A stretch of DNA of 64,000 nucleotides from NCBI RefSeq assembly GCF_026241855.1, contig NZ_JAPJDC010000001.1, positions 2,976,001 to 3,040,000 on the forward strand, given 5' to 3'. Shown one piece after another: positions 6,515 to 63,036 of this stretch. The DNA is from Curtobacterium flaccumfaciens pv. betae. Its GTDB lineage: Bacteria > Actinomycetota > Actinomycetes > Actinomycetales > Microbacteriaceae. The position numbers and the translations under genes are program-made. Each line of letters starts with the position of its first letter. The stretch's first letter is position 1. The notes under the pieces were generated by a model. That model was not told the DNA's origin. It saw only the letters and a list, made by a program, of their open reading frames with translations, and did no database searches.

Positions 6515-6546
6515 GGAGGCCAGGGGCGGGGCCGCCACGGGCCTCC
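6515..6546. repeat. Dispersed 32-bp palindrome, copy 1
   Basis: GGAGGC (6515-6520) and GCCTCC (6541-6546) flank a GGCGG/CCGCC inner stem; total unit length is 32 bp. Further copies lie at 29733, 37705, 40370 and 63005, with half copies at 9045 and 61507. This copy sits between the converging LacI and HxlR genes, where it could end transcription from both sides. Confidence 0.75.
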
Positions 6547-6566
6547 TGGCCGTCAGCTGGTCGCGT

Positions 6567-7022
6567 TCAGGACGCCGGCTCCATGACGGCGCGGAGGCGC
6601 GCGGTCGGGATGCGCTGCTGCGCATCCACCGTCACGGCGGCGGCCTCGACCGCCTCGCCGGTCTCGGCGTCGACGAAGCGCAGGTCCGACGCCCGCTCGG
6701 ACGGGCGGTGCCGGTCGGCCCAGCCGCCGAGAGCGAGCAGCACGAGCGACAGGTCGCGGCCGGCGTCGGTCAGGACGTACTCCTCGCGGGCACGTGCCCC
6801 CTCGGGCTTGTAGGTCGTGCGCTCGAGCACTCCCCCGTCGACGAGTGAGGCCAGCCGTGCGGTCAGGACCTCGCGCGGGACGCCGAGGCTCTGCTGGAAC
6901 TGACTGAAGCGGGTCGAGCCGCCGACGGCGTCGCGAACGATCATGAGCGTCCACTTCTCGCCGAGGACGTCGAGGGAGCGTGCGATGGGGCAGCGCTCGT
7001 CGCCGCCGAGGATGCCGAGCAT
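6567..7022 (-). CDS. HxlR family transcriptional regulator
   Basis: This 151-aa winged-helix regulator has the HxlR signature CPIARSLDVLGEKWTLMIVRDA (Cys11 is the conserved redox or aldehyde-reactive cysteine in relatives such as HypR and YodB) and the core RFSQFQQSLGVPREVLTARL. About 45 residues at the C-terminus are an extension. A TAGGAT -10 box ends 6 nt before the ATG, so the message is probably leaderless. It is divergent from an SDR reductase gene, the usual target layout for this family. Confidence 0.92.
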   Translation of the reverse strand: MLGILGGDERCPIARSLDVLGEKWTLMIVRDAVGGSTRFSQFQQSLGVPREVLTARLASLVDGGVLERTTYKPEGARAREEYVLTDAGRDLSLVLLALGGWADRHRPSERASDLRFVDAETGEAVEAAAVTVDAQQRIPTARLRAVMEPAS

Positions 7023-7106
7023 GTGTTCATCCTAGCTGGGTTCGATTTCCGGACACAACATGCTAGGTTCGGATTCCGTACTCAACTTCTCTCGTCTGGA
7101 GCACTC
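7023..7106. promoter_or_regulatory. Divergent HxlR/SDR promoter with direct-repeat operators
   Basis: For the leftward gene the -10 is TAGGAT (complement of 7029-7034). For the rightward gene TTCGAT (7041-7046) and TAGGTT (7064-7069) form a -35/-10 pair with 17-bp spacing, and GGAG (7098-7101) is the ribosome site. GGTTCGATTTCC (7039-7050) and GGTTCGGATTCC (7066-7077) are direct repeats, 10 of 12 bases alike and 27 bp apart, and are the best candidates for HxlR binding. Confidence 0.6.
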
Positions 7107-7802
7107 ATGACCGACCTCACCAACGCCGTCGTCCTCGTCACCGGAGCGAACGGCGGCCTCGGCGCCGAGTTCGTCCGCCAGGCCCTGGAGCGTGGCGCCA
7201 CCAAGGTCTACGCGACCGCCCGCAACCCGCGCACCTGGGACGACGAGCGCATCGTCCCGCTCGGCCTCGACGTCACGAGCCAGGAGAGCGTCGACGCCGC
7301 GGCCCGCGCCGCAGCCGACGTGACCATCGTCGTGAACAACGCCGGGATCGCCGGCTCCGACCCGCTCGTCGACGTCTCCGTCGAGGAGGTCGAGCGCATC
7401 TTCGCCACCAACGTCTTCGGTGCACTCCGCGTCGCCAAGGCGTTCGCCCCCTCGATCGCCAACGGCGCACTGGTCGACGTCCACTCCGCCCTGAGCTGGG
7501 TCGCCCTCGCCGGCGCGTACTCGGCGTCGAAGGCCGCGTTCTGGTCGATCACGAACTCCCTGCGCCTCGAGCTCGCACCCCAGGGCACCCAGGTCGTCGG
7601 CGCCCACCTCGGCTACACCGACACCGGCATGATCGCCGATCTCGACGTCGAGAAGTCCGACCCCGCCGACATCGTCCGGTCGATCTGGGACGCGGTCGAG
7701 GCCGGCGAGCACGAGGTCCTCGCCGACCAGGTCAGCCGCGACGTCCGTGCCGGCCTGAGCGCCCCGCTCACCGCGCTCTACCCGATGCTCACCAGCGCCT
7801 GA
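7107..7802 (+). CDS. Short-chain dehydrogenase/reductase
   Basis: This 231-aa classical SDR is a cytosolic NAD(P)(H)-dependent oxidoreductase. It has the cofactor motif TGANGGLGAE at residues 10-19, NNAG near residue 74, and the catalytic YSASK near residue 133. The length is normal for the family. The ATG at 7107 is preferred over the longer frame because GGAG lies 5 nt upstream and the Rossmann strand starts right after. Being divergent from an HxlR regulator suggests induction by a reactive electrophile or quinone; the substrate is unknown. Confidence 0.9.
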   Translation: MTDLTNAVVLVTGANGGLGAEFVRQALERGATKVYATARNPRTWDDERIVPLGLDVTSQESVDAAARAAADVTIVVNNAGIAGSDPLVDVSVEEVERIFATNVFGALRVAKAFAPSIANGALVDVHSALSWVALAGAYSASKAAFWSITNSLRLELAPQGTQVVGAHLGYTDTGMIADLDVEKSDPADIVRSIWDAVEAGEHEVLADQVSRDVRAGLSAPLTALYPMLTSA

Positions 7803-7819
7803 AGGCCGTCCCCGTCGGG

Positions 7820-8383
7820 TCAGCCGCCCGCGCCGCGGTCGGTGATCCGACGGTTCGTCGCGGTGATGGCGGCGCGCTCGTCGTCGGACAGGCCACCGGC
7901 GTGGAGGATCCGGCTCAGCACGTCGCTCTTCCGCTCGATGTAGTCGTCGATGTCCTCGGCCTCGGTGGCTGCCCGGCGTTTCACGGCGGCGTACTCGTCG
8001 CGGAGCGCCGGGTCGGCACGCAGCACGTCGCGGACGGCCAGGTGGTTCCGCAGCGCGAGCGAACCGATCGTGACGACGTAGGTGTTCGTCGGGGTGAAAC
8101 GCTCCGGAGCCCGGAACGCCTGCCTGTCCGGGACGCCGAGTTCACCGCGCGGCTCGAACCCGATCGTCGCCATCGCCGCCACCGTAGCCGGCACGTCGGC
8201 TGCGTCCACCACGACGTCGACGTCGAGCACGGGCTTCGCCGCCAGGCCCGGCACGGAGGTGCTGCCCACGTGCTCGATGCTCCGGAACGGCACGTCGGCG
8301 TCTTCGAGTGCGGCGGCGTACGCGCCATGCAGCTGCCGGAACCGCTCGGGCCAGGCCGGCCGGTACTCGACGACCTCGATCAC
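7820..8383 (-). CDS. GrpB family protein (nucleotidyltransferase-like)
   Basis: This 187-aa protein matches the GrpB/UPF0157 family, a branch of the nucleotidyltransferase superfamily of uncertain substrate. It carries the hallmark IEVVEYRPAWPERF at the start, IEHVGSTSVPGLAAKPVLDVDV in the centre and a C-terminal DYIERKSDVL helix. The GTG start at 8383 overlaps the stop of the upstream acetyltransferase (GTGA), which implies translational coupling. The two genes lie behind tRNA-Ser on the same strand. Confidence 0.9.
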   Translation of the reverse strand: MIEVVEYRPAWPERFRQLHGAYAAALEDADVPFRSIEHVGSTSVPGLAAKPVLDVDVVVDAADVPATVAAMATIGFEPRGELGVPDRQAFRAPERFTPTNTYVVTIGSLALRNHLAVRDVLRADPALRDEYAAVKRRAATEAEDIDDYIERKSDVLSRILHAGGLSDDERAAITATNRRITDRGAGG

Positions 8384-8910
8384 GGGGCCGGCGTCGGCGC
8401 GAGGAGCTGGAACATGACGTGGTCGCGCCAGACCCCGTCGATCTTGATGTACTCCGGCGCGAAGCCGTAGCGGGTGAAGCCCGCCGACTCGAGCGCGCGC
8501 TGCGAGCCGACGTTCTCGGGCAGGGTCTCGGCCTGCACGCGATGGAGCCGGAGCACGTCGAACGCGTGATCGGCGGCCGCGCGGACAGCGCGGGACGCGT
8601 GACCCTGGCGCGTGCGATCGGCGCGGATCCAGTACCCCATCGCGCACGACTGCAGGGCGCCGCGCGTGACGCCGCTCAGCGTGATCCGACCGAGGATTTC
8701 CCCGTCGGTCGACTCGATGACGAACGGCACCGCGTTGCCGGCCCGCTGCGCGGCGAGGGCCTGCGTGATGACGTCCCGCTGCCCGGACTCCGTGTAGTAC
8801 GACGGCGCTCGTGCCGGTTCCCACGGTCGCAGGTGGTCGGCGTTCTCGGTGATGACCGCAGCCAGGACGGCCGCGTCGTCGAGGCGGAGTGGGCGCAACC
8901 GTGTGTCCAT
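8380..8910 (-). CDS. GNAT acetyltransferase, RimJ/RimL type
   Basis: This 176-aa protein has the order of elements of a RimJ/RimL N-acetyltransferase: LRLDDAAVLAAVI at the N-terminus, an ILGRITLSGV strand, the acetyl-CoA loop region RTRQGHASRAVRAAADHAF, and the C-terminal VQAETLPENVGSQRALESAGF signature. It transfers acetyl from acetyl-CoA to an amine, possibly a ribosomal protein or a small molecule. The ATG at 8910 is used because the longer frame runs through tRNA-Ser. The start is only 2 nt from the tRNA 3' end and no ribosome site is visible, so the message may be released as a leaderless product of tRNA processing. Confidence 0.85.
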   Translation of the reverse strand: MDTRLRPLRLDDAAVLAAVITENADHLRPWEPARAPSYYTESGQRDVITQALAAQRAGNAVPFVIESTDGEILGRITLSGVTRGALQSCAMGYWIRADRTRQGHASRAVRAAADHAFDVLRLHRVQAETLPENVGSQRALESAGFTRYGFAPEYIKIDGVWRDHVMFQLLAPTPAP

Positions 8911-8912
8911 CG

Positions 8913-8997
8913 CGGAGGGTGTGGGATTCGAACCCACGAGACATCTCTGCCCACCTGTTTTCAAGACAGGCTCCATCGGCCGCTCGGACAACCCTCC
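8913..8997 (-). tRNA. tRNA-Ser(UGA)
   Basis: The 85-nt class II tRNA has a seven-pair acceptor stem GGAGGGT/ACCCTCC and discriminator G, as expected for serine. The anticodon stem-loop CCTGT-CTTGAAA-ACAGG gives anticodon UGA (complement at 8961-8963). A long variable arm follows, and the T-loop reads GGGTTCGAATCCC. CCA is not encoded. The first downstream codon of the GNAT gene begins 2 nt after the tRNA end. Confidence 0.97.
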
Positions 8998-9080
8998 AGT
9001 GACGCGACCACGTGGCGAGACGTGATCGCGTCCCGGGAAGTCTACCCGGGCCTCCAGGCTGGGGTGCGCGCGAGCGCGGA

Positions 9081-9944
9081 CTAACGGGGCAGGGAGTCGA
9101 GCGCCGCTGCCAGGCCGTCGTCGGTGATGCCGCCGGTGAGCTCGTTGCCGGCGTCGACGACGTCGTCGGGAGCCTGGCCCATGACGACGCCGCGACCGGA
9201 GGTCGAGGCCCAGCGGAGCATGTCGATGTCGTTGCGGCCGTCACCCGCAGCGAAGACTCGGGACCGCGGGATGTCGAGCCACTCGCGCACGCGCTCCATC
9301 GCGGTGGCCTTCGTCACGCCCTCGGGAGCGATGTCGAGCCACGACGTCCAGCCGACGGAGTACGAGACCTTGTGCAGGCCCATCTGCTCGACGATCTGCA
9401 GGAAGTCCTCGGTGTCGTGGCCGGGCGAGATGACGACGACGCGGGTGGCCTCGACGCCGAGCAGCTGCTCGAACGGCACGTGCTCGCCCTCGACGGTCAT
9501 GGTGTCGTCGGGGAAGTTGCCGGACAGCAGGAAGTGACCGGTCTCGTCCTCGACGCCGAACGCCGCGTTCTCGAGCGCGCCGTGGATGGTCTGCAGCACC
9601 TCGGACGGGTCGAACCGCTCGACGTGTTCGCGCACGTAGGAGCCGTCGGCGCGGCGGGCCAGGATGAGCGCACCGTTCGCGCACACCAGGTACTTCGGCC
9701 GGATGCCGAGGGTCTCGAGCAGGGGCACGGTCATGCCCTCGCTGCGGCCGGTCGAGAGCATGACCTCGTGGCCGGCGGCCTCGGCGTCACGGACGGCGGC
9801 GACGACTGCCTCGGTGATGACACCGTCCTCACGCATGGTGGTGCCGTCGATGTCGAGCGCGACCAGCCAGCGCTTGGTGCGGGCGGGCGCGTCGCTGCCC
9901 GCGCCCTGCGAGGTGCCGTCCACGAACCGTCCCTGGGTGCTCAT
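9081..9944 (-). CDS. HAD-superfamily phosphatase, Cof type
   Basis: This 287-aa cytosolic HAD hydrolase removes phosphate from a sugar phosphate or cofactor precursor. Motif I is DIDGT near residue 31 with the nucleophile Asp, motif II is STGR, and motif IV is [10 protein letters not shown] near residue 240. The large insertion between motifs II and III is the Cof (type IIB) cap. The ATG at 9944 overlaps the serS stop (ATGA), so the two genes are translationally coupled. The gene pair serS-HAD is common in actinobacteria; the substrate is not known. Confidence 0.9.
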
Positions 9945-11206
9945 CGGGGCTCGATCACCTCGACGCCACCGAGGTAGGGGCGCAGGACCTCGGGCACGAC
10001 GACGGAACCGTCGGCCTGCTGGTGCGTCTCGAGGATCGCGACGATCCAGCGGGTGGTGGCGAGGGTGCCGTTCAGGGTGGCGACCGGAGCGGTCTTGCCG
10101 CTCTCGGTGCGGTACCGGATGTCGAGACGGCGGGCCTGGAACGTCGTGCAGTTCGACGTCGAGGTGAGCTCGCGGAACGTGCCCTGGGTCGGGACCCACG
10201 CCTCGATGTCGTACTTCTTCGCCGCGCTCGTGCCGAGGTCGCCGGCGGCGACGTCGATCACGCGGTAGTGGAGCCCGAGGTCCTGGAGCATCTGCTCCTG
10301 GTGGGAGACGAGGCGCTCGTGCTCGGCCTCCGCCTGGTCCGGGTGGACGTAGGCGAACATCTCGAGCTTGTTGAACTGGTGCACGCGGAGGATGCCGCGG
10401 TTGTCCTTGCCCGCCGAACCGGCCTCGCGGCGGTAGCAGGTCGACCAGCCGGCGTAGCGGTGTGCCTGTCCTTCCTCGAGCGGCAGGATCTCGTCGGCGT
10501 GGAACCCGGCGAGGGCGACCTCGCTCGTGCCGGTCAGGTACAGGTCGTCGGCTTCGAGCCGGTAGACCTCGGCCGCGTGCTCGCCGAGGAACCCGGTGCC
10601 GGCCATCGTCTCGGGGCGGACGAGCGTCGGGGTGATGAGCGGCTCGAAGCCGGCGGCGATCGCACGGTCGAGGCCGAGCGACATCAGCGCGATCTCGAGC
10701 CGGGCGCCCATGCCGCGCAGGAAGTAGAAGCGCGAGCCGGAGACCTTCACGCCACGCGGGATGTCGATGATGCCGAGGTGCTCGCCGAGGTCGGCGTGGT
10801 CCTTCGGCTCGAAGTCGAACTCGGGCTTGGTGCCGACGGTGCGGAGCGTGACGAAGTCGTCCTCGCCGCCCTCGGGCACCCCGGGGAGCACGACGTTCGG
10901 GATGCCGCGGACGACGGTGTTGAAGGTGTCCTCGGCCGCGGTGACGGTGGCCTGCGCCTCCTTCACCTTCGCGGCGAGGGCCTGGGCCTGCTGCACGAGC
11001 GCGGCCTTCTCGTCCTTCGGGGCCTTGGCGACGGTCTTGCCGAACGCGTTCTGCTCGGCGCGGAGCGACTCGAACGACGTGATCGCACTGCGACGGGCGG
11101 AATCGGCGGCGACGGCTTCGTCGACGACGGCCACGGAGGCACCACGCGCCTGCTGTGAAGCCTTGATGACGTCCGGGTTGTCGCGAAGCAGCTGTGGATC
11201 GATCAC
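9941..11206 (-). CDS. serS: Seryl-tRNA synthetase
   Basis: This 421-aa class II synthetase charges tRNA-Ser (and tRNA-Sec where present) with serine. The N-terminal coiled-coil arm covers about residues 30-105. Motif 2 is in [16 protein letters not shown], followed by [11 protein letters not shown], and motif 3 lies in [13 protein letters not shown]. Length is normal. The start is GTG at 11206, with a TAGGAT -10 box ending 6 nt upstream (complement of 11213-11218), so it is leaderless. It heads an operon with the HAD phosphatase, and a tRNA-Ser gene lies 1 kb downstream. Confidence 0.98.
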
Positions 11207-11261
11207 CGCCCCATCCTAGACGGGGGCAACCGCACGCAGCCTCGATCGGTAGCGTGGACGT

Positions 11262-12332
11262 ATGTCGACCCCTTCGGAGACCGCGCCCGCGGACCAGGAC
11301 GCCCTCCCCACCGAGCAGCGGACGGCCGCGGTGGTCTACAACCCGGTCAAGGTCCACCTGCCGACCCTCAAGCGCACGGTCGCGGAACACCAGCAGCAGG
11401 CCGGCTGGGCCGAGACCCTGTGGTTCGAGACCTCGGAGGAAGACCCGGGCGGCGGCATGGCCCGCGCGGCGATCGAGGCCGGTGCCGACGTCGTCGCGGC
11501 GGCCGGCGGTGACGGCACGGTCCGTGCGGTCGCCGAGGTCGTGCACGAGTCCGGTTCGACCCTCGCGCTACTGCCGAGCGGCACCGGCAACCTGCTCGCG
11601 CGCAACATGAAGCTCCCCCTCGACGACCTGGCCGCGAGCGTCCGGACGATCTTCCACGGCGACGACCGCAAGATCGACTTCGGCATGCTCAAGGTCGAGC
11701 GCCCCGGCGGTGAGCGCGAACGCTTCGGCTTCCTGGTGATGGCGGGCCTCGGGCTCGACGCCCGGATGCTCGTGAACACCCGCCCCGAGCTGAAGAAGAA
11801 GGTCGGCTGGCTCGCCTACGTCGACTCGCTGTTCCGCTCGGTGCGCGACGCGAACGCGTTCGAGTTCCGCTACCAGCTCGACGACGACGGCAATCACTCG
11901 CTCCGGGCGCACTCGCTCATCGTCGGCAACTGCGGGATGCTCCAGGCCGGCGCGATCCTGCTGCCCGACGCCGAGATCGACGACGGGGTGTTCGACATCG
12001 CCGTGATGCGTCCCCGCGGGTTCTTCGGCTGGGTGCGGATCGGTGCCCGGGTGTTCTGGGAGAACGGGATCCTGCGGGCGTTCCGCCGGTCGAACCTGGG
12101 CAAGACCGCCGTCGGCAAGAAGATCGTGTCGCGTTCACGCGAGGAACGACCCCTGCGCTACCTGCGCGGACAGGAGTTCACGGCGCGGCTCGAGCGGCCC
12201 GATGAGTTCGAGATCGACGGCGACCCGGTGGGCGAGGTCATCGCCTTCCGTTCGCGCATCGACCCGATGGGGCTCTCCGTGCGTGTGCCGGACCCGGCGG
12301 ACGACCGCCACGGCTCGCGCCAGGTGCCCTGA
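11262..12332 (+). CDS. Diacylglycerol kinase family lipid kinase
   Basis: This 356-aa protein belongs to the diacylglycerol/sphingosine kinase family and phosphorylates a lipid alcohol at the membrane face. The nucleotide motif GGDGT lies near residue 86, with LPSGTGNLLARN near residue 106, both characteristic. The C-terminal half has the beta-sandwich typical of DgkB/YegS enzymes, including FEIDGDPVGEV. TAGCGT ends 6 nt before the ATG, indicating a leaderless message. It is divergent from serS. The exact lipid substrate cannot be told. Confidence 0.92.
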   Translation: MSTPSETAPADQDALPTEQRTAAVVYNPVKVHLPTLKRTVAEHQQQAGWAETLWFETSEEDPGGGMARAAIEAGADVVAAAGGDGTVRAVAEVVHESGSTLALLPSGTGNLLARNMKLPLDDLAASVRTIFHGDDRKIDFGMLKVERPGGERERFGFLVMAGLGLDARMLVNTRPELKKKVGWLAYVDSLFRSVRDANAFEFRYQLDDDGNHSLRAHSLIVGNCGMLQAGAILLPDAEIDDGVFDIAVMRPRGFFGWVRIGARVFWENGILRAFRRSNLGKTAVGKKIVSRSREERPLRYLRGQEFTARLERPDEFEIDGDPVGEVIAFRSRIDPMGLSVRVPDPADDRHGSRQVP

Positions 12333-12350
12333 GCCGACCCGGTCGCTGGC

Positions 12351-12395
12351 TCCGTCGCTCTGTCGCTCCGTCGCTCCGTCGCTCCGTCGCTCCGT
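12351..12395. repeat. 8-bp tandem repeat
   Basis: About 5.5 copies of TCCGTCGC (one with C to T) lie 18 bp after the lipid kinase stop and run straight into a palindromic repeat at 12394. Confidence 0.8.
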
Positions 12396-12454
12396 GCGAG
12401 GTTCCGTCGTCCGTGCGAGGGCCGCGGGCTCTCACCGACTACGGAACCTCGCAC
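12394..12454. repeat. GTGCGAGG/CCTCGCAC palindrome, copy 1
   Basis: GTGCGAGGTTCCG (12394-12406) pairs with CGGAACCTCGCAC (12442-12454); an inner GTGCGAG/CTCTCAC pair is imperfect. Copies with the same arm spacing (46-48 bp start to start) occur at 30878 and 32694. It lies between the converging lipid kinase and pheA genes. Confidence 0.75.
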
Positions 12455-12471
12455 CACACGGCATCACGGCA

Positions 12472-12501
12472 CCGCGGAGCGCCGCGGAGCGCCGCGGAGC
12501 G
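12472..12501. repeat. 10-bp tandem repeat
   Basis: Three perfect copies of CCGCGGAGCG lie directly before the pheA stop codon. Confidence 0.8.
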
Positions 12502-12506
12502 CCGAG

Positions 12507-13463
12507 CTACCGCGCCCCGGGCTCGCCCGACACGATCGCGCGCAACCAGTCCCGCGCCTCGACGAACGCGGCGTCCGAGTAGCGGGCGGGCACCTCGGGG
12601 CGGGCACCGTCGGCACGCGGGTACGACCCGAGGAACGTCACGCGCGGGCTGAACCGACGCAGGCCGAGCAGCGCGTCCGCGACCCGCTCGTCGCGCACGT
12701 GCCCGTCGAGGTCGATGACGAACCGGTAGCGGCCGAGCTCGTCACCGATCGGGCGTGACGACAGCAGCCCCATGTTGATGCCCCGCGTCGCGAACTGCTC
12801 GAGCATGTCGACCAGGGCGCCGGGGTGGTCGGCGGGCAGCTCGACGATGACGCTGGTCTTGTCGGCGCCGGTCGGCTCGGGCAGGGCGAGGGTCTTCGAC
12901 ACGAGCACGAACCGGGTGACCGCCGAGGCGTTGTCCCCGATGGACGACGCGAGCACGACGACGTCGTGGTGGTCCGTGATGCCGGGCGGCGCGACGGCGG
13001 CGTCGGCGGTGGGGTTCGCCTCGAGCAGGGCGAGGGCCGCGGCGACGTTCGACGACGCCGGGATGTGGCCGTGGCCGGGCAGGTTCGCCTCGAGCCAGTT
13101 GTGCGTCTGCGCGTAGGCGACCGGGTGTGCGTTCACGGTGCGGACGTCGGCCATCGTCGTGCCGGGCCGGGCGACGAGCACGAAGTCGACGGGGACCAGG
13201 TACTCCCCCACGATCCGCACGCCGGGGATCCGGGCCAGGGCGTCCTGCGTGGCGCTGACCCCGCCGTCGACGCTGTTCTCGATCGCGATGACGGCCCCGA
13301 TCGACCGGCCGGACATGACGTCGTCCAGGGCCTCACCGACGTTGTTGACGCTCCGCCAGGGCTTGCCGGCGGCGGCCTCAACGAGCTTCAGGGCCGCCTC
13401 GGTGAACGTGCCGGCGGGTCCGAGGTAGGAGTACGTGTCGGACGGCGCGGCGGGGTCGGTCAT
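12507..13463 (-). CDS. pheA: Prephenate dehydratase
   Basis: This 318-aa cytosolic enzyme converts prephenate to phenylpyruvate in phenylalanine synthesis. The catalytic part (about residues 10-195) begins with YLGPAGTFTEAA and contains IGAVIAIENSVDGGV and the end motif SAVTRFVLVSKTL, where Thr-Arg-Phe is the conserved catalytic motif. A C-terminal ACT domain (GALVDMLEQFATRGINMG) senses phenylalanine. It is a monofunctional enzyme without a chorismate mutase domain. TAGGCT ends 6 nt before the ATG (complement of 13470-13475), so the message is leaderless. Confidence 0.96.
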   Translation of the reverse strand: MTDPAAPSDTYSYLGPAGTFTEAALKLVEAAAGKPWRSVNNVGEALDDVMSGRSIGAVIAIENSVDGGVSATQDALARIPGVRIVGEYLVPVDFVLVARPGTTMADVRTVNAHPVAYAQTHNWLEANLPGHGHIPASSNVAAALALLEANPTADAAVAPPGITDHHDVVVLASSIGDNASAVTRFVLVSKTLALPEPTGADKTSVIVELPADHPGALVDMLEQFATRGINMGLLSSRPIGDELGRYRFVIDLDGHVRDERVADALLGLRRFSPRVTFLGSYPRADGARPEVPARYSDAAFVEARDWLRAIVSGEPGAR

Positions 13464-13486
13464 GCGGCGAGCCTATTGCAGGGACG

Positions 13487-29698: not shown

Positions 29699-29732
29699 GT
29701 TGGTTCCTTGGGGGTGTGGGAAAGGCGGACGG

Positions 29733-29764
29733 GAGGCCCGTGGCGGGCCCGCCACGGGCCTCCA
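29733..29764. repeat. Dispersed 32-bp palindrome, copy 2 (perfect)
   Basis: A perfect 32-bp palindrome with 16-nt arms, the first reading GGAGGCCCGTGGCGGG. It lies between the ATP-grasp gene stop (29785) and the SfnG start (29698), both on the minus strand. It is the best-preserved member of the family. Confidence 0.9.
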
Positions 29765-29784: not shown

Positions 29785-30783
29785 TCAGGCCGTGAGCTGC
29801 GCCGCGTACTGCGTCTCCAGCAGACCACCGAGGTACTTCGCGATGGAGCGCGGGCCGGAGGCCGGCGCGGACTCCTCGACCGCGGGGTTGTAGTTCGTGT
29901 TCGTGTTGATGTCGTAGACGACGGTACGGCCGTCCGTCGTCTCCATGAACTCGACGCCCGCGATGGTGATGCGCTGGTCGGCGAGGAACGTGCGGAGCTG
30001 CTGGACCAGCGGGTGCTCGGCGGTGATCTCGGTCCGGACGGCGAACGCCGGGGGCGCACCGGCGGTCTCGGTGCCGGGCACGTCGCAGACGGCGCCGGCG
30101 ATGACCTGCGGCACCTCGCACGCGTCGGCGGGGCAGAGCTCGAAGCTGCCGGCGCTGGTGTCGACGCGGACGGCGTACACGAACTCGCCGCCGACGAACT
30201 CGACGCGGGTGATGAAGGGCTCGCGGGCCGTCAGGTACTCCTGCAGCAGGGTGATGCCGTCGACCGGGGCCTCGAACTCGGGGCTGTCGACGTAGGCGTC
30301 GAACTCGGCGAGCGAGTCGAACCGCCGCACGCCCAGGCCCTTGCCGCCCTGGTTGTGCTTCGTGATGAAGGGGACGTCCTGCCCGTCGGTGAAGGTGCGG
30401 GCGGCGTCCTTGAGCGTCGTCGTGCCGAACACGGCGGTCGTGCGCGGCACGTCGAACCCGGCCTGCTGCAGGAGACCGTGCTGCGCGACCTTCGACACCT
30501 CGAGCTCGAGCACGTGGCTGCCGCCGACGACCTGGCGGCCGGCTCGCTCGAGCCAGCCGAGGATCGCCCGGGTGTACTCCTTGCTGTGCTCGTGGCCGCG
30601 GGTGTGGGAGCTCGCGGACATGCGGCTCCAGTAGACGCCGGGTGCCGGCTCGGCCGCGAGGTCGATCTGCCCCTCGGTCAGCAGGATCTCCTCGACCGGG
30701 ACGCCCTCGGCCTCGAAGGCGGCGGCGAGCGGGGGGAACCACTCGGGGTTCTCGTGGATGACGTACACGCGCGGAGTGCTCAC
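29785..30783 (-). CDS. ATP-grasp ligase, RimK-like
   Basis: This 332-aa protein has an ATP-grasp fold: an N-terminal domain (VYVIHENPEWFPPLAAAFEAEG), the lid KVAQHGLLQQAGFDVPRTTAVF near residue 115, the phosphate loop TKHNQGGKGLGVRRF near 155, and the metal-binding end GVEFMETTDGRTVVYDINTNTNYN near 290. It should join a carboxylate to an amine using ATP; the substrates are unknown. The start is GTG at 30783 with TAGGGT ending 6 nt upstream, so it is leaderless. It lies ahead of sfnG-metY, separated by the 32-bp palindrome. Confidence 0.85.
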   Translation of the reverse strand: MSTPRVYVIHENPEWFPPLAAAFEAEGVPVEEILLTEGQIDLAAEPAPGVYWSRMSASSHTRGHEHSKEYTRAILGWLERAGRQVVGGSHVLELEVSKVAQHGLLQQAGFDVPRTTAVFGTTTLKDAARTFTDGQDVPFITKHNQGGKGLGVRRFDSLAEFDAYVDSPEFEAPVDGITLLQEYLTAREPFITRVEFVGGEFVYAVRVDTSAGSFELCPADACEVPQVIAGAVCDVPGTETAGAPPAFAVRTEITAEHPLVQQLRTFLADQRITIAGVEFMETTDGRTVVYDINTNTNYNPAVEESAPASGPRSIAKYLGGLLETQYAAQLTA

Positions 30784-37634: not shown

Positions 37635-37704
37635 GCGGACCATCCTACGGGCGCACGGAACCCCGATGACGCGTGCGGCGGTGGACTGTGGAGAACCGGG
37701 TCCG

Positions 37705-37736
37705 GGAGGCCCGTGACGGGCCCGCCCCGCGTTTCC
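37705..37736. repeat. Dispersed 32-bp palindrome, copy 3 (degenerate)
   Basis: The left half matches the perfect copy at 29733 with one change; the right half has drifted (CCCGCCCCGCG then TTTCC). The flanks TCCGG and CCAGACCGGCGG are shared with the copy at 40370. It lies between the metG promoter and the rsmI stop. Confidence 0.65.
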
Positions 37737-37768: not shown

Positions 37769-38590
37769 TCAGCGCGCCGCGAGCGCCCCTTCGTACAGGT
37801 CCCGCTTCGACAGCCCGGTCGCGTCCGCGACCGCCGCGGCGGCCTCCTTCATGCGCATGCCGGCGGCCACCCGCTCGAGCACCAGCCGCACGCCGTCGTC
37901 GAGCGTGGCTTCTTCCGTGGCCTCTGCCGCGCCGGCGACGACGATGCAGATCTCGCCCCGCACACCCTCGGACGCCCACGTGACGAGTTCGTCCAGCGGC
38001 CCGCGACGGACCTCTTCGTACAGCTTCGTGAGCTCGCGGCACACCGCGGCGCGGCGGTCGCCCCCGAACCCGACGGCCATGTCGGCCAGGGTCTCGGCCA
38101 GCCGGTGCGGCGACTCGAAGAACACCATCGTCCGCTGCTCCCCCGCCAGCGCCTGGAACGCCCGGCGGCGCTCCCCGGCCTTGCGGGTCGGGAACCCCTC
38201 GAACGTGAAGCGGTCGGTGGGCAGCCCGGACACGGCGAGCGCCATGAGCACGGCCGACGGCCCGGGCAGGGCGGTGACGGTGACGCCGGCGGCCGCGGCG
38301 GCCTCGACGAGCGGGAAGCCCGGGTCGCTGATCGCGGGCATGCCGGCGTCGGTGAGGACGACGACGTCCTCGTCACGGGCGAGCTCGACGACCTCGGACG
38401 CCTTCGCCCGTTCGTTGTGCTCGTGCAGGGCGATGAGCCGCGGACGGTTCTCGATGCCCAGGGCGCGCATCAGGTGGATGGCGGTCCTGGTGTCCTCCGC
38501 CGCGACGACCGTGGCGTTGGAGAGGGTCTCGACGAGACGGCGCGAGGCGTCCCCGAGGTTGCCGATGGGCGTTGCTGCGAGGACGATCAC
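37769..38590 (-). CDS. rsmI: 16S rRNA (cytidine1402-2'-O)-methyltransferase RsmI
   Basis: This 273-aa SAM methyltransferase of the tetrapyrrole-methylase fold modifies C1402 in the ribosomal P site. It has LAATPIGNLGDAS, VAAEDTR, LTDAGMPAISDPGFPLV, FFESPHRL and TKLYEEVRRG. The start is GTG at 38590, with GACAAT ending 6 nt upstream (complement of 38597-38602), so it is leaderless. It is divergent from the protein mannosyltransferase gene, an arrangement conserved in actinobacteria. Confidence 0.97.
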   Translation of the reverse strand: MIVLAATPIGNLGDASRRLVETLSNATVVAAEDTRTAIHLMRALGIENRPRLIALHEHNERAKASEVVELARDEDVVVLTDAGMPAISDPGFPLVEAAAAAGVTVTALPGPSAVLMALAVSGLPTDRFTFEGFPTRKAGERRRAFQALAGEQRTMVFFESPHRLAETLADMAVGFGGDRRAAVCRELTKLYEEVRRGPLDELVTWASEGVRGEICIVVAGAAEATEEATLDDGVRLVLERVAAGMRMKEAAAAVADATGLSKRDLYEGALAAR

Positions 38591-40355: not shown

Positions 40356-40415
40356 ACCACCGCCGGACTGGAGGCGCGTGGCGACGCCGCCACGGGCCTC
40401 CAGTCCGGCGGTGGT
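40356..40415. repeat. 60-bp hairpin containing 32-bp palindrome, copy 4
   Basis: Perfect 20-bp outer arms (ACCACCGCCGGACTGGAGGC at 40356-40375, complement at 40396-40415) hold an inner CGTGGCG/CGCCACG stem. The 32-bp core unit is 40370-40401. The right arm touches the tetR stop codon and the hairpin sits between converging pmt and tetR genes, so it can end transcription in both directions. Confidence 0.9.
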
Positions 40416-57637: not shown

Positions 57638-57733
57638 GGTAGCTGCAACGGCCGCGACGGCCTCAGCGGCCAGCCGGGTACCGCCGGGTACCGCCCGGGA
57701 GCGCCCGGGAGCGCCCGCGCTACGCTCGTCCCG

Positions 57734-58747
57734 ATGCGCGCAACCGTGCGGGACGTGGCAGCCCTCGCCGGGGTGTCCCCGAAGACCGTCTCCAACGTCG
57801 TCAACGGCGGCGTGGTCGTGCGCCCGGAAACCCGGGAACGCGTCGAGCGTGCGGTCGCCGAGCTCGACTACGTGCCGAACCTGTCCGCCCGCGGGCTCCG
57901 GAACGGTCGCTCCGGAGCGATCGCGCTGACACTGCCGGAGATGGGCAGCGCCTACTCCGCCGAACTCGCGCAGTCCTTCGTGGAACTCGCCCGCGAACGC
58001 GGCTGGGTCGTGCAGCTCGAGCAGACCGGCAACGACCCGGCCCGCGAACGCGAACTGGTCTCCCGTGCCCGCGCACACCTGGTGGACGGGCTGATCCTCA
58101 ACCCGGTGTCGCTCAGCGCGAGCGTCCTGGCCTCGACCGAGGGACTGCCGCCGACCGTCGTCATCGGCGAGGTCGAGCCCGAGCACGTCGACCAGGTGCA
58201 CGTCGACAGCCGTGCGGCGGCCGAGCAGGTCACCGAACACCTCATCGCCCACGGGCACCGGCGCATCGCGATCGTCGGGGCGTCACCCGAGGGTGCCGCG
58301 ACGGCGACCAGCGAGCTCCGCGAACGCGGGTACGCCGCCGCGATCGGCGCCGCCGGCATCACGCCCGACCCGTCGCTCCGAGTCCCGCTGCCGGCGTGGA
58401 CCACGAGTTCCGCGGCGACGACCTTCGCGGCCTGGCTCGACGAGCACCCCCTGCCCGACGCCGTCTTCGCGTTCACCGACTCGATCGCGTTCGGGGTGCT
58501 GCACGTGCTCGCCGCCCGCGGTGTCCGGGTGCCGGACCAGGTCAGCGTCATCGGGTTCGACGACGTCGACGGTGCCGCGTACGCGATCCCGTCGCTCAGC
58601 ACGGTGTCGTTCGACCGTCGGGCGTTCGCAACGGCTGCGCTCGACCTGCTGACCCGTCGGATCGCTGACCGCGGTGCCGCGCCGGAGACCGTCGTCGTGC
58701 CGCACCGGATCGTCGAGCGCGCGAGCGTCGCCGACCGCCCGCGCTGA
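57734..58747 (+). CDS. LacI family transcriptional regulator
   Basis: This 337-aa repressor-type protein has a LacI helix-turn-helix at residues 3-55 (TVRDVAALAGVSPKTVSNVVNGG, hinge YVPNLSARGLRNG) and a sugar-binding effector domain with VIGFDDVDGAAYAIPSLSTV. TACGCT ends 7 nt before the ATG, so it is leaderless. No sugar transporter is next to it; the dehydrogenase pair at 53161-55205 is the nearest possible target. The 96-bp gap upstream has short tandem CCGGGTACCG and CCCGGGAGCG copies. Confidence 0.92.
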   Translation: MRATVRDVAALAGVSPKTVSNVVNGGVVVRPETRERVERAVAELDYVPNLSARGLRNGRSGAIALTLPEMGSAYSAELAQSFVELARERGWVVQLEQTGNDPARERELVSRARAHLVDGLILNPVSLSASVLASTEGLPPTVVIGEVEPEHVDQVHVDSRAAAEQVTEHLIAHGHRRIAIVGASPEGAATATSELRERGYAAAIGAAGITPDPSLRVPLPAWTTSSAATTFAAWLDEHPLPDAVFAFTDSIAFGVLHVLAARGVRVPDQVSVIGFDDVDGAAYAIPSLSTVSFDRRAFATAALDLLTRRIADRGAAPETVVVPHRIVERASVADRPR

Positions 58748-58779
58748 CGCCGACGTCGCCGCCGCCGTCGCCGCCGCCG

Positions 58780-58839
58780 TTTCGCGCTGACCGACACCTC
58801 ACGCCGTCGCGGGCCCGTGACGTGTCGCTCAGCGCGAAA
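58780..58839. terminator. Bidirectional hairpin between LacI and hydrolase genes
   Basis: TTTCGCGCTGA (58780-58790) pairs with TCAGCGCGAAA (58829-58839); CGACAC/GTGTCG extends the stem inside. The right arm covers the stop codon of the converging hydrolase gene. The CGCCGCCGT repeat just before it is low-complexity. Confidence 0.75.
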
Positions 58840-59602
58840 GACCGCCGGGGCCGGAGCCGCCGCCGCCCCCACCCGGGTCCGCCGCCGCCAGCACCGCCGA
58901 CCGCGTCCGCGCATCGCCGAGGATCCGGAAGTGCCCTCCCACCGGCAGCCGCACGTTCGTCGCCCCCTGGAGCTCGCTGCCCTCGGGGATGAGCGTGTCG
59001 AACACCCCGTACACCGAGGTGATCCGCGCGTTCGCGTCGAGTTCCCGTGCCAGCCCCGCCAGCACCGGGTCGGCCGCCCGGAACGCCCGCAGGTGCGGCA
59101 CCGGCGCGAGCCGCGCGTAGACCGAGCCCGCGAAGGGCGTCGACACCGCGACCATCCGGTCGATCCGCTCGTGCTGGTCGAGCTGCGTCATCGCGTACTT
59201 GCCGATCAGCCCGCCCTTGCTGTGTGCGAGCACGAGCACGTTCCGCAGGTCCTGTTCCTCCAGGGTCGCGATCACCTCGCGCGCGGAGTCGGGCACGGGC
59301 CGCAGGTTGTGCCGCAGGACGGGCAGCACGTGCACCGGGTGCCCCCGGTCGTGGAGCGCGTCCATCAGCGGCCGCATGAAGTGCCAGGTCTCGTAGACGC
59401 CGGGCACCACGACGACGGGCTGCCCGGCGCCGGTCCGGTAGTCGTCCGCGGTGGTCGGGCCGAGGCTCCGGACCTGCCACCTGGCGGCGTACCCCCAGTC
59501 GAGTGCGGCCCACCACGCGCGTCGCACCAGCGGGACACGGCCTGGAGGCCCGGATCGCGCCGTCCGCGCCGCCTCCGTCCCCGACGTGGCCGGCCGGGTC
59601 AT
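58829..59602 (-). CDS. Alpha/beta hydrolase, lipase-like
   Basis: This 257-aa protein has PVVVVPGVYETWHFMRPLMDAL as the oxyanion region and AHSKGGLIGKYAM near residue 131 with the nucleophile Ser in an unusual Ala-His-Ser-Lys-Gly elbow; VSTPFAGS follows, as in triacylglycerol lipases and PGAP1-like esterases. The catalytic His is in GGHFRILG. The first about 45 residues are basic with a Trp-rich stretch (RAWWAALDWGYAARW), perhaps a membrane-associated helix. The ATG overlaps the upstream hydrolase stop (ATGA). Substrate unknown. Confidence 0.82.
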   Translation of the reverse strand: MTRPATSGTEAARTARSGPPGRVPLVRRAWWAALDWGYAARWQVRSLGPTTADDYRTGAGQPVVVVPGVYETWHFMRPLMDALHDRGHPVHVLPVLRHNLRPVPDSAREVIATLEEQDLRNVLVLAHSKGGLIGKYAMTQLDQHERIDRMVAVSTPFAGSVYARLAPVPHLRAFRAADPVLAGLARELDANARITSVYGVFDTLIPEGSELQGATNVRLPVGGHFRILGDARTRSAVLAAADPGGGGGGSGPGGLSR

Positions 59603-60372
59603 CGCAGCCCCTCCAGGCGCTCGGCGCTGCGGAACGTCTCGAGGAGGCGCGCGAAGGCGTCCGGCTGCCGTTCCTGCACGTGGTGCGGGCCGGCCAGTTC
59701 CACGAAGGTGCCGTTCGGCGCAGCGGCCGCGACCCGAGCCGACCAGTCGTGCCGCGCGATCGGGTCCTGGGTGCCGCGGACGACGAGGACGGGCTGCGTC
59801 ACCTCGGTGATCGTCTGCTCGGTCGGGTAGCGGAGCATCGGTCCGAGCTCTCGCGTGTACTGCCGCATGCTCCGCAGGTAGTCGGTGACCAGGACGCCGT
59901 TCATCCGGACCCCCTCGACGAACCCGTCGCGGCCCAGGTCGAGCGCCTGCAGCGGGAGCGATCGCCGCTCGGAGTCGATCACCGGACCGACGAGCACGAT
60001 CGCCGCGACGGTCTCCGGGTGGCGCCGGGCGGACTCGACCACGACCTGGGCACCCATCGACTGCCCGACGAGCACCAGGTCGCCGTCGACCAGGTGGCGG
60101 ACCGCCCGAACGACGACGTCGCCGAGCTCCTCGATCGACAGCCGCCGACCGGCCGCGGGCAGCCAGCCGAACCCCGGCAGGTCGACGCTGACCGTGCGGT
60201 GCTCGGCGGCGACGGCGCGCTGCGACCGGGCGAAGGACCGGTGCGACATCCCGATGCCGTGGACGAACACGACGGTGGGGTCGGTGTCGTCGCGGACCGG
60301 CTCTCGCGCCGCCATGGTGTGCAGGCGCACGGGCAACCCGTCGATCCGGACGGTCTCCACAGCAGCGCGCAC
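59599..60372 (-). CDS. Alpha/beta hydrolase
   Basis: This 257-aa protein has the alpha/beta hydrolase layout: VVFVHGIGMSHRSF as the oxyanion turn, VGQSMGAQVVVESAR near residue 103 with the nucleophile Ser, the acid in RGTQDPIARH, and the catalytic His in AGPHHVQERQPDAF. It likely cleaves an ester or a carbon-carbon bond; the substrate is unknown. The start is GTG at 60372 with TAGCCT ending 6 nt upstream, so it is leaderless. It is coupled to the lipase-like gene downstream. Confidence 0.88.
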   Translation of the reverse strand: MRAAVETVRIDGLPVRLHTMAAREPVRDDTDPTVVFVHGIGMSHRSFARSQRAVAAEHRTVSVDLPGFGWLPAAGRRLSIEELGDVVVRAVRHLVDGDLVLVGQSMGAQVVVESARRHPETVAAIVLVGPVIDSERRSLPLQALDLGRDGFVEGVRMNGVLVTDYLRSMRQYTRELGPMLRYPTEQTITEVTQPVLVVRGTQDPIARHDWSARVAAAAPNGTFVELAGPHHVQERQPDAFARLLETFRSAERLEGLR

Positions 60373-60423
60373 GAGCCGAGGCTACGCGGCGGTTCGCAGC
60401 ACCGGGTCAGCCTCGTCATCGGC

Positions 60424-60446
60424 TGCACACAGCCGCGCCGTGTGCA
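60424..60446. promoter_or_regulatory. Inverted repeat upstream of a small membrane protein gene
   Basis: TGCACAC (60424-60430) and GTGTGCA (60440-60446) flank a 9-bp CG-rich centre in the 82-bp gap between divergent genes. It may be an operator; no regulator is adjacent. Confidence 0.35.
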
Positions 60447-60454
60447 CTCCTGGC

Positions 60455-60928
60455 ATGAGCGACACCACTCCCACCAACGGCCACGAACCGGACGGCTCCG
60501 ACCCGGCGAACCGGGCGACGACGCCGACCGGCTGGGGCGCCGCCCCGACCCCGACGTCGACCTCCACGCTCGACGCCCCCGCGCCGCAACAGCAGCAGCA
60601 GCAGCCGTGCCGCGCGGACGCCGGCGCCACGACCCCGGGCGCCTGGGACTCCACCGCCCCGAACGGCACCACCCCCTGGTACGGAGCCGCAGCCGGCGCC
60701 GCGAGCCCGACGAACCGCCGCAGCGCAGGCCCGAAGCCCCCGTGGTTCTGGCCGCTCCTCGCCGCGATCGTCGGGCTCGCCGCGCTGCTCGTCGGCGGAG
60801 GCGTCGGGTTCGCCATCGGCCACGCGATCGGCGCGGACCGGACGCAGTCGACGACGCAGGTGCCCGGCACGAACCGGTTCCCGGGCAACGGCACCGGCCA
60901 GGCCCCCGGGTACGGCACCGGGAGCTGA
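60455..60928 (+). CDS. Single-pass membrane protein with Pro/Thr/Gln-rich N-terminus
   Basis: This 157-aa protein has no recognised domain. About 95 low-complexity residues rich in Thr, Pro, Ala and a QQQQQQ run precede one membrane helix (about residues 99-122, WPLLAAIVGLAALLVGGGVGFAIG), then a short Gly/Asn/Thr-rich tail. Topology with the disordered part inside and the short tail outside is likely, as in many actinobacterial DUF4190-like proteins. The ATG at 60455 follows an inverted repeat. Function unknown. Confidence 0.65.
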   Translation: MSDTTPTNGHEPDGSDPANRATTPTGWGAAPTPTSTSTLDAPAPQQQQQQPCRADAGATTPGAWDSTAPNGTTPWYGAAAGAASPTNRRSAGPKPPWFWPLLAAIVGLAALLVGGGVGFAIGHAIGADRTQSTTQVPGTNRFPGNGTGQAPGYGTGS

Positions 60929-60949
60929 CCGGCGGGTACGATCCGTCCC

Positions 60950-61498
60950 ATGCGGAAGACCACTGCCGGTCTGTTCACGTCGGTCGACGGCGTCGTGCAG
61001 GACCCCTACGAGTTCCAGTACGACAGCTTCGACGACGAGCTCGGTGCAGCGATGGGTGCCTTCATGGCCCGGACCGACACCGTGCTGCTCGGCCGGAACA
61101 GCTACCTGGAGTGGTCCGAGTGGTGGCCAGCCCACCCGGAGGACCCCTTCGGCCAGTGGATCAACCCGATCGAGAAGCACGTGGCCTCCACCACGCTCGG
61201 CAACGACCTGACCTGGCAGAACAGCACGCGGATCCCCGGCGACGTCCCCGCGTTCGTGCGCGACCTGCAGCAGCGCGATGGTGCGGACATCGCCGTGTGC
61301 GGCAGTGTCACGCTCGTCCGCAGCCTGCTGTTCGCCGGGGTCCTCGACGAACTGCAGCTCATGATCCACCCGGCGATCGCCGGCCGTGGCCGGCGACTGT
61401 TCGAACCGACCGATCCGCCCACGCGCCTGCGTCTGGTCGACAGCACCGTGACGAGCAAGGGGAACGTGCTGAACACCTACGGTCGGTTCGACGCCTGA
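60950..61498 (+). CDS. RibD C-terminal/dihydrofolate reductase-like protein
   Basis: This 182-aa protein fits the RibD-C/DHFR-like family of small NADPH-dependent reductases: TAGLFTSVDGVVQDP at the start, DTVLLGRNSYLEWSEWWP, IAVCGSVTLVRSLLFAGVLDELQL and HPAIAGRGRRLFEP. These look like reductases of unknown substrate (YwjB/YyaP group), not true folate or riboflavin enzymes. TACGAT ends 7 nt before the ATG, so it is leaderless. Confidence 0.9.
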   Translation: MRKTTAGLFTSVDGVVQDPYEFQYDSFDDELGAAMGAFMARTDTVLLGRNSYLEWSEWWPAHPEDPFGQWINPIEKHVASTTLGNDLTWQNSTRIPGDVPAFVRDLQQRDGADIAVCGSVTLVRSLLFAGVLDELQLMIHPAIAGRGRRLFEPTDPPTRLRLVDSTVTSKGNVLNTYGRFDA

Positions 61499-61600
61499 CG
61501 GACGCACCACGGGCCTCCCAGCCCCACCCGTCATGCGCCCCGGCAAACCGCGCGTACCCTCGATGGTGACCATCCGCACCCGAGGAACACCGGAGCAAGC

Positions 61601-62899
61601 ATGACCCAGGACACCCGCCCGCACGTCGTCATCGTCGGCGGTGGATTCGCCGGTGTGGCCGCCATGCGCGAGCTCGCCGATGCGCCGGTCCGGGTGACCC
61701 TGGTCGACCGCCACGTCTACAACATGTTCCAGCCCCTGATGTACCAGGTGGCGACGGGCGGCCTGAACGCCGGCGACGTGACGTACTTCCTCCGCTCGCT
61801 CCGGGCCCGCCAGTCGAATGCCGAGTTCCGTCACGGCCTGCTCACCGGCATCCGCACCGACGAGCGCATCGCCGAGATGTCCGACGGCGAGCACCTGCAC
61901 TACGACTACCTGATCCTCGCCAACGGCGTGAACACGAGCTACTTCGGCACCCCCGGTGCGTACGAGTACGCGTACTCGATGTACTCCCGCTCGCAGGCAC
62001 TCCGCATCCGCGACGAGCTGTTCACCCGGCTCGAAGAAGCGGCGGCGAACCAGGGCCCCGACGAGATCCGCATCGTGATCGTCGGTGGCGGTGCGACCGG
62101 CGTCGAGATGGCCGGCGCGCTCGCCGAGCTCCGCGACCAGGCGCTCGTCGGCGCGTACCCGGAGATCGAACGCGGCAACATCTCGATCACCCTCGTGCAC
62201 CGCAGCGGCGAGCTGCTCAAGCCGTTCGCCCCGCGCCTGCGCCGGTACGCCGCCAAGGTGCTGCGCAAGCGAGGCGTCGTGCTGCGGCTGAACACCGGCG
62301 TCTCCGAGGTCAAGCGCGACGGCGTGATGACCGCGGACGGCGAGTTCATCCCCGCCTCGCAGGTGATCTGGGCGACCGGCGTCGCCGCCCACAAGGAGGT
62401 CTCCGGCTGGGGCCTGCCGCAGACCCACGGTGGCCGCATCCAGGTGAACGACGACCTGAGCGTGAAGGGCGCCGAGCGGATCTTCTCCGCCGGCGACATC
62501 GCGGCGCAGGACGACGCCCTCGCCCAGCTCGCCCAGCCCGCGCTGCAGGGCGGACGGCACTCGGCGCGGCAGATCGTGCGCCTGCTCGAGGGCAAGGCCA
62601 CCGAGCGCTTCAAGTACTTCGACAAGGGCACCATGGCGACGATCGGCACGAACGCCGCGGTCGCCCAGCTGCGTGGCGGGATCACGATGGTCGGCCCGAT
62701 CGCCTGGCTGGCCTGGGTGTTCGTGCACATCACGAGCCTGCTCGGCGCCGGCAACCGGATGTCGACCCTGACGCACTTCTTCGTCCGCTACGTGTGGTTC
62801 ATGCGGAAGCGCTCGATCCCGATCGTCGGCGACGTGCGCCCGGTGCGCCCGAACGGCGACCGCGAGCCGGACCCCTGGCAGCTGCAGAAGGCCGAGTAG
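61601..62899 (+). CDS. ndh: Type II NADH dehydrogenase-like flavoprotein
   Basis: This 432-aa protein is a non-proton-pumping NADH:quinone reductase. It has the FAD loop VIVGGGFAGVAAMREL near residue 10, QPLMYQVATGGL (quinone-site region), the NADH loop IVIVGGGATGVEMAGALAEL near 152, and the second FAD motif RIFSAGDIAAQDDALAQLAQPALQGG near 290. The C-terminal about 70 residues are amphipathic with WLAWVFVHITSLLG for membrane attachment. GGAG lies upstream of the ATG. A half copy of the 32-bp palindrome lies in the 102-bp gap before it. Confidence 0.93.
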   Translation: MTQDTRPHVVIVGGGFAGVAAMRELADAPVRVTLVDRHVYNMFQPLMYQVATGGLNAGDVTYFLRSLRARQSNAEFRHGLLTGIRTDERIAEMSDGEHLHYDYLILANGVNTSYFGTPGAYEYAYSMYSRSQALRIRDELFTRLEEAAANQGPDEIRIVIVGGGATGVEMAGALAELRDQALVGAYPEIERGNISITLVHRSGELLKPFAPRLRRYAAKVLRKRGVVLRLNTGVSEVKRDGVMTADGEFIPASQVIWATGVAAHKEVSGWGLPQTHGGRIQVNDDLSVKGAERIFSAGDIAAQDDALAQLAQPALQGGRHSARQIVRLLEGKATERFKYFDKGTMATIGTNAAVAQLRGGITMVGPIAWLAWVFVHITSLLGAGNRMSTLTHFFVRYVWFMRKRSIPIVGDVRPVRPNGDREPDPWQLQKAE

Positions 62900-62918
62900 C
62901 CGCGCGCGTTTCCACTTG

Positions 62919-62969
62919 GTGAGCAGGAACGGTCGGGTCCGCACGTCGGACCCGACCGTTCCTGCTCAC
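62919..62969. terminator. Perfect 23-bp hairpin after ndh
   Basis: Arms of 23 bp (first begins GTGAGCAGGAACGGTC at 62919-62941, partner 62947-62969) enclose a CACGT loop. It begins 20 nt after the ndh stop and is a strong factor-independent type hairpin without a T-run. Confidence 0.85.
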
Positions 62970-63004
62970 GGTGTGCGTGCGGTGGACGCGGGGCGCGACG
63001 GCCT

Positions 63005-63036
63005 GGAGGCGCGGTGCGGGCCGGCCACGGGCCTCC
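63005..63036. repeat. Dispersed 32-bp palindrome, copy 5
   Basis: GGAGGC (63005-63010) and GCCTCC (63031-63036) flank CGCGGTGCGGG and CCGGCCACGG. The 32-bp length is the same as in the other four copies. It lies between the ndh terminator and another long hairpin in the 424-bp gap before the acyltransferase gene; no gene was seen there. Confidence 0.75.

Follow-up and report, generated by a model that had tools for sequence, protein, structure and literature searches.

A dispersed 32-bp palindrome of Curtobacterium is a putative bidirectional 3′-end hairpin without a U-tract

The stretch of the Curtobacterium flaccumfaciens pv. betae genome analysed here (64,000 nt, hereafter the window) carries five units of a dispersed palindrome family, F1, which we read, with a probability of about 0.6, as a putative bidirectional 3′-end hairpin that lacks a U-tract and was amplified inside Curtobacterium. 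The position of F1, its symmetry, its preferred length and its retention at several orthologous gene ends are directly supported by the data below, and so are its avoidance of gaps occupied by other hairpins and its amplification within the genus. According to the mechanism that we propose, the symmetric 32-bp core and its arms would be transcribed from either side, often soon after a stop codon, the transcript would fold into a stable GC stem closed by a small loop, and this hairpin would end or protect the mRNA, acting either as an actinobacterial intrinsic-type terminator lacking the U-tract or as a block at the RNA end following Rho-dependent termination. Judged from its sequence and setting, F1 is predicted to terminate or stabilise transcripts. 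Dispersed palindromes are usually taken as selfish (REP) or as terminators. Because F1 is repeated, tied to 3′ ends, nearly confined to one genus among those sampled and accompanied by low-copy relatives, its origin, spread and function become testable.

F1 was defined as the exact unit GGAGGC-N20-GCCTCC. In the genome studied (3.78 Mb in two contigs, the second of 85 kb) a pattern search found 253 such units, whereas the reversed-pattern control found 0, so that the frequency exceeds chance, and the family proposed in a sequence-only reading of the window is real, dispersed and far larger than the window's five units. About a quarter of the genome was analysed base by base, namely the 85-kb contig and an 864-kb sample consisting of 800 kb of the chromosome (two 400-kb stretches) and the window, and the remainder was covered via the pattern. 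Our own codon-model caller placed 789 genes in the 864-kb sample, at a coding density of 0.86-0.89, and 59 exact F1 units were found there. A weight matrix trained on exact units, and therefore biased against degraded copies, scored 66 positions at 16 or more and none in the reversed sequence.

The window contains the following features, none of which is assigned a strand:

6515..6546: F1 unit (32-bp core) in a convergent gap whose stop codons lie 18 and 20 bp away
29732..29763: F1 unit, a perfect palindrome, in a tandem gap 3′ of an ATP-grasp gene
37705..37736: degenerate F1 unit with ends GCGTTTCC, 3′ of rsmI and between two minus-strand genes
40370..40401: F1 unit in the gap between convergent protein-mannosyltransferase-like and TetR-like genes
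40362..40409: 48-bp extended symmetric element, the 40370 unit plus 8 bp per side, on the basis of the 59-unit logo
63005..63036: F1 unit, 105 bp past the stop of the gene at 61601-62899 (+), with no called gene further on
9045..9057: half-unit letters only, not to be told apart from chance or decay
61507..61518: half-unit letters only, 8 bp past a stop codon

Direct reading confirmed the units at 6515-6546, 40370-40401 and 63005-63036 as GGAGGC-N20-GCCTCC, and the unit at 37705-37736 is degenerate, as had been claimed. The perfect palindrome is present too, although it lies one base earlier than the earlier reading had put it. None of the five units overlaps a called gene, in agreement with the claim that they are intergenic only. 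The letters of the two half units are also there, but an isolated half is not diagnostic, since the 864-kb sample has 20 occurrences of CCACGGGCCTCC outside exact units, 9 inside genes and 11 between them. The gene beside the 29732 unit (29785-30768, minus strand) encodes a RimK-like ATP-grasp protein with a score under the family cut-off, and the rsmI gene adjoining the 37705 unit occupies 37769-38590 (minus strand).

The suggested count of intergenic versus coding copies gave 59 and 0 in the 864-kb sample, with no unit overlapping a gene. One unit lay at an edge, and the other 58 occupied 30 tandem, 26 convergent and 2 divergent gaps; relative to summed gap length, convergent gaps were in excess (p = 2e-4) and divergent gaps in deficit (p = 4e-6). 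In tandem gaps, 25 of 30 units were closer to the upstream stop than to the following start (medians 29.5 and 140.5 bp), and among the 83 stop-facing ends 14 were exactly 20 bp from the stop codon and 5 were at 19 bp. The convergent gap at C1:395152 measures exactly 20 + 32 + 20 bp. Another strong hairpin was present in 10 of the 26 convergent gaps that are 60 bp or longer and hold F1, compared with 47 of 67 without it (Fisher p = 0.008), and in 4 of 28 tandem gaps with F1, compared with 56 of 181 without it (p = 0.08), both comparisons being uncorrected for gap length. At gene ends F1 seems to take the place of other hairpins. As a separate observation, eight further motif-defined repeated palindromes (F2-F9), some of them in few gaps, occur in gaps of this kind, and a repeat of ~60 bp (F10), present in other genera, is seated in F1-like half-sites in Curtobacterium. 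Clustering of hairpins by shared 10-mers was dropped because it chained 232 of 251 together, and motif-defined families were used instead.

The F1 core sits in the middle of a symmetric element longer than itself, with conservation extending to about position -8 on either side in the logo of the 59 units. The half consensus is GACGGAC[G/T]GGAGGC-N-CG-KK-GC, of which GACGGAC[G/T]GGAGGC bears out the shared flanks noticed earlier, and the weaker outer ACGCGACC pairs no better than composition predicts. Among GGAGGC-Nx-GCCTCC sequences lying entirely in intergenic DNA 59 had x = 20, and 0-3 were found at every other x from 0 to 89; when only palindromic copies in the two 400-kb stretches were counted, 50 of 64 were N20, so that the length is preferred rather than absolute. 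The predominant core types are CGGTGCCAGCTGGCACCG and CGTGGCG...CGCCACG, and like halves were paired beyond chance (39 observed against 19 expected). Nineteen of the 59 sample units are perfect palindromes, and the 59 comprise 43 distinct 32-mers, six of which recur 3-5 times, one of these six being a local tandem array. The invariance of GGAGGC and GCCTCC is imposed by the search pattern itself. C-2, CG and GC are nearly invariant independently of the pattern, and positions -1, 6, 9 and 10 vary. Since CG and GC are near-invariant though not set by the pattern, the letters are conserved more strictly than pairing requires, and this conservation probably reflects recognition or copying and not folding alone. 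A pure terminator requires no conserved letters, and hence these letters count against a reading of F1 as nothing but a terminator.

When the 56 distinct 48-mers were compared over their 24 pairs, Watson-Crick pairing was 0.852, a value reached by 0 of 1000 shuffles (shuffled maximum 0.794). Among orthologues of the RimK-like site there was a small pairing excess (2 of 1000 shuffles reached the observed value), and among rsmI orthologues pairing was not above shuffles (300 of 1000 reached it), and one of the pairs was a G.A mismatch in 24 of 33. Compensatory change as a proof of an RNA hairpin was rejected, because it is true across copies and fails at the rsmI site. In RNA folding, three of the five window units were well below shuffles (z from -3.4 to -9.9), with z = -3.35 for 6495-6566 around the 6515 unit, -6.0 at 29732 and -9.88 at 40370; the other two, at 37705 (z = +0.67) and 63005 (z = -0.98), were not clearly better than shuffles. 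Two perfect copies outside the window gave z = -12.8 and -11.7. F1 hairpins share with intrinsic terminators a stable GC stem just past stop codons and lack the canonical U-tract: four or more T among the 10 nt spanning the end of the stem were counted in 17% of them, compared with 42% of other hairpins in convergent gaps and 15% of other hairpins in tandem gaps. The hairpin-forming extragenic family at gene ends, and its description as a possible, predicted terminator, were thus rightly recognised in the earlier reading.

Orthologous sites were compared next to one another in relatives. Four window sites could be tested in five relatives, giving 19 comparisons with 18 exact units: 4 of 4 at 6515, 4 of 5 at 29732, where the copy of G032 is interrupted, and 5 of 5 both at 37705 and at 40370, a unit that several named species lack. 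In the rsmI gap, G149, a genome of the same species, has an exact F1 where the studied genome has the degenerate one. With locus sets that took the best-scoring genomes first, plus 15 hand-picked rsmI sites, the rsmI site held an exact unit in 34 of 45 genomes examined, and the RimK-like site in 30 genomes was N20 in 17, N21 in 9, N22 in 1 (the interrupted copy) and none of these in 3, two of which read as G runs. Turnover was observed elsewhere. Among 201 gap comparisons there was one gain (in G033). At 59527 an F1-like hairpin of variable length was retained in 1 of 4 relatives. Over 400 kb compared with G061, an exact unit was present in either genome at four gaps, of which 1 was shared, 2 were occupied in the studied genome only and 1 in G061 only, the studied genome carrying an N21 form in the last; with G051, 1 gap was occupied in the studied genome only and 0 were shared. 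The F1 at C1:173411 in the studied genome has as its counterpart in G061 a different hairpin (GGAAGGCGCAGCAC...), and at C1:69976 G061 is without the unit and the gap is shorter, with no clean duplication. G030 was left out of the gap comparison, as its first 400 kb yielded only 26 reciprocal best hits. The comparison of syntenic sites with and without the element that had been recommended therefore gave a divided answer, since 18 of 19 comparisons at window sites show stability and there is turnover elsewhere, G061 sharing 1 of 4 gaps.

With a loose pattern, all 64 same-genus relatives gave 25-279 matches, and 85 other relatives gave 0-7, which is the range of the controls; this pattern inflates low-copy genomes (G040, 25 loose against 3 strict), and the strict core undercounts genomes with varying cores (G018, 142 loose against 53 strict). 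By the strict core, 16 of 20 Curtobacterium genomes carry 53-203 copies, with 193 in the studied genome and 203 in G149, and four carry 3-36 (G050 36, G063 5, G040 3 and G051 3), these being called low-copy from the count alone. Among 398 genomes of the family from 85 genera, 18 matched and reversed controls gave 0: Curtobacterium 10 of 10, genus g71 7 of 9 (1-3 copies each) and one g21 genome, so that 8 of the 388 non-Curtobacterium genomes matched, with 1-3 copies each. The search of related Microbacteriaceae called for earlier thus shows that high copy number is nearly confined to Curtobacterium among the sampled genomes. The 3-5 strict copies of G040, G051 and G063, against 53-203 in 16 of 20 genomes, support a past amplification inside the genus. 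Of the 16 copies of g71, G040 and G051, 12 lie between two called genes, convergent in every case; the remaining 4 have a single called neighbour and face its 3′ end. In 400 kb of G051 a strong hairpin was present in 18 of 32 convergent gaps, and 2 of those 18 were F1-like. These low-copy convergent sites and gap hairpins indicate that gene-end hairpins are general, and that in most Curtobacterium many of them were taken over by F1. A T-rich run follows the copy at L352, most copies of g71, G040 and G051 being without one. In addition, when viral contigs were scanned with the 32-bp core three matched; in L350 F1 sits between two called convergent genes, and the matches in L349 and L351 were judged by eye as chance-like.

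An alternative that we consider unlikely, and yet worth weighing, has F1 as a selfish, REP/MITE-like palindrome that an enzyme working on hairpin DNA has spread, tolerated at gene ends as the places of least harm. It would fit the identical cores at separate loci, the strict-core counts spanning 3-5 to 203 inside one genus, the turnover against G061, and the same convergent/tandem bias described for REPs (PMC3733652). However, the search for a TnpA-REP (RAYT) gene that the earlier reading advised came back empty, as PF01797 (Y1_Tnp), the one transposase profile used, was found in 0 of 64 genus genomes, with control genomes positive in 5 of 14; no clean target-site duplication or empty site was seen at the few presence/absence sites inspected by eye; the 85-kb second contig holds 0 units where 5.8 are expected at chromosomal density (Poisson p = 0.003); and the window sites are stable. 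Of the mobility first suggested, the past amplification is supported; the stable window sites speak against current movement, and the turnover against G061, with 1 of 4 gaps shared, speaks for it. A tentative account of the spread, to which we give little weight, is terminator conversion, in which hairpin-primed template switching would overwrite a resident 3′-end hairpin with F1 and perfect its arms, with no insertion. If true, a handful of ordinary convergent terminators would have given rise to about 200 similar ones in Curtobacterium, and conversion would explain the gene-end location, the avoidance of other hairpins, the missing clean insertion scars, the absence from the second contig, the paired core variants, the halves of mixed type, and the presence of another hairpin at one orthologous site.

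It is rather improbable that F1 is a DNA site for a symmetric protein (a nucleoid, gyrase, boundary or road-block factor) and its hairpin incidental: the near-invariant C-2, CG and GC among varying positions, the preferred length and the mismatches retained at the rsmI site would agree with such a site, but the 3′-end location, the avoidance of gaps holding other hairpins and the pairing across copies above shuffles argue against it. We find it hard to credit that each half is a signal of the uptake-sequence kind and that inverted pairs of halves serve as terminators besides, as the USS pairs of Haemophilus make terminator stems (PMC5217627), because one half motif, counted over 864 kb, formed 112 ends of full units and stood singly at 12 intergenic and 16 genic positions; this census also ruled out a DNA uptake sequence, which would occur singly in hundreds of copies and often within coding DNA. 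The reading of F1 as a 3′-end hairpin draws on its extragenic location, convergent bias, stop proximity, pairing across copies, kept sites and the different hairpin in G061, and has against it the U-tract absence, the two window units that fold no better than shuffles, the rsmI pairing and the turnover.

The earlier reading gave F1 no family name, and no named family was found for it: an Rfam scan of the window at gathering score gave a single match, a tRNA, and none on F1. At E 0.1, four loci gave sub-gathering matches only, mostly to microRNA families on perfect hairpins, which were judged spurious. Among the literature matches listed, with most subscription journals outside the coverage, no such family was found in Curtobacterium or Microbacteriaceae, nor, among the matches listed, a dispersed bidirectional-terminator family in Actinobacteria. 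F1 resembles the GTAG/CGTC-tagged REPs, as these are outlined in Di Nocera et al. 2013 (PMC3733652; the string 'actinobacteri' is absent from its main text), in being a high-copy extragenic palindrome of 20-40 bp, mostly 3′ of genes in convergent or tandem gaps. Unlike REPs, its flanks are symmetric, sharing one consensus (GACGGAC read inwards) and being mutually complementary, with no unpaired GTAG or CGTC end tag, CGTC occurring only inside the paired arms on both sides; and the stem of well-folding F1 is at least 14 bp, against 8-9 bp in the CGTC REPs of that source. The REP-like label of the earlier reading therefore holds for size, copy number and extragenic 3′ location and not for the end tag and Y1 transposase, and F1 is REP-like in distribution without being a REP member on the features tested.

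The Bor, Ype and Efa repeats (PMC1590033) are likewise repeated stem-loops near gene 3′ ends, likened here by description, and their hosts are Bordetellae, Yersiniae and Enterococci. In the Haemophilus influenzae USS-pair terminators, as presented in PMC5217627, one conserved sequence also makes many gene-end stems with the same context bias, and for the motif pair of A. ebreus that source counts intergenic copies in 44 convergent, 4 divergent and 59 co-oriented settings; those come from other phyla and have other sequences, whereas F1 halves are rarely single. A review of mycobacterial transcription (PMC12288462) describes U-less ('I-shaped') terminators near stop codons, which like F1 are GC hairpins within about 50 bp past the stop and have no poly-U, and titles cited in it conflict on the U-tract requirement. 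In contrast to F1, with its conserved letters, preferred length and about 250 copies, these are not presented as a repeated family in the review's account of them. F1 units are also candidate bidirectional terminators that could be of use in high-GC Actinobacteria, in which that requirement is debated.

The repeat F10, which is about 60 bp long (GGGCCCAC...GGTGGGG), is flanked by CT and GAGGC in 25 of the 30 fetched loci. From the sequence, its placement looks as if it had been inserted into a half-site of F1, the dispersed palindrome family with the core GGAGGC-N20-GCCTCC, and F10 may be a small element with F1 as its target. Examples of F10 and of the further, motif-defined palindrome families are:

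L314-L343: F10, fetched loci
6515 site in G149, a genome of the same species: F10
L090 at 9010-9078: F10
Window ~12394, ~30878 and ~32694: palindromes of families beyond F1
L035-L074: palindromes of families beyond F1

F10 was found in 59 of 64 Curtobacterium genomes (~14 candidates scored per genome) and, outside the genus, in 17 genomes belonging to 14 genera when 199 genomes of the family were scanned (no more than four candidates scored per genome); the CT...GAGGC pair was absent around F10 in the three loci read from other genera.

An F1 unit was found split by other sequence at the 29732 (RimK-like) site of a relative (G032, L247), where the gap measures 146 bp vs 86 bp in the own genome. 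At this site and at the rsmI site, some draft assemblies carry G runs, or end within or just past the F1 unit (L258, L260, L237, L086); these are probably artefacts at strong hairpins, and therefore F1 counts in drafts may be too low.

Besides F1, eight motif-defined palindrome families, with motifs such as GTGAGCAGAAATGGTCGGGT, GGTGCGAGGTTCCGTACTCGGTGCGA, ACACCGGTGTTC and GGTTCTGGTTCACGA, were detected, and they lie mainly at the ends of genes. At G000:C1:1156566-1157031, in the own genome, three identical F1 copies spaced by 217 bp alternate with three palindromes of one of these families, F2, and this array is a local tandem repeat. Finally, the rsmI-side F1 unit is adjoined by a conserved sequence, CTGTGGAGAA (TTCTCCACAG on the opposite strand; window 37644-37704 and orthologues), which appears similar to a DnaA-box variant.
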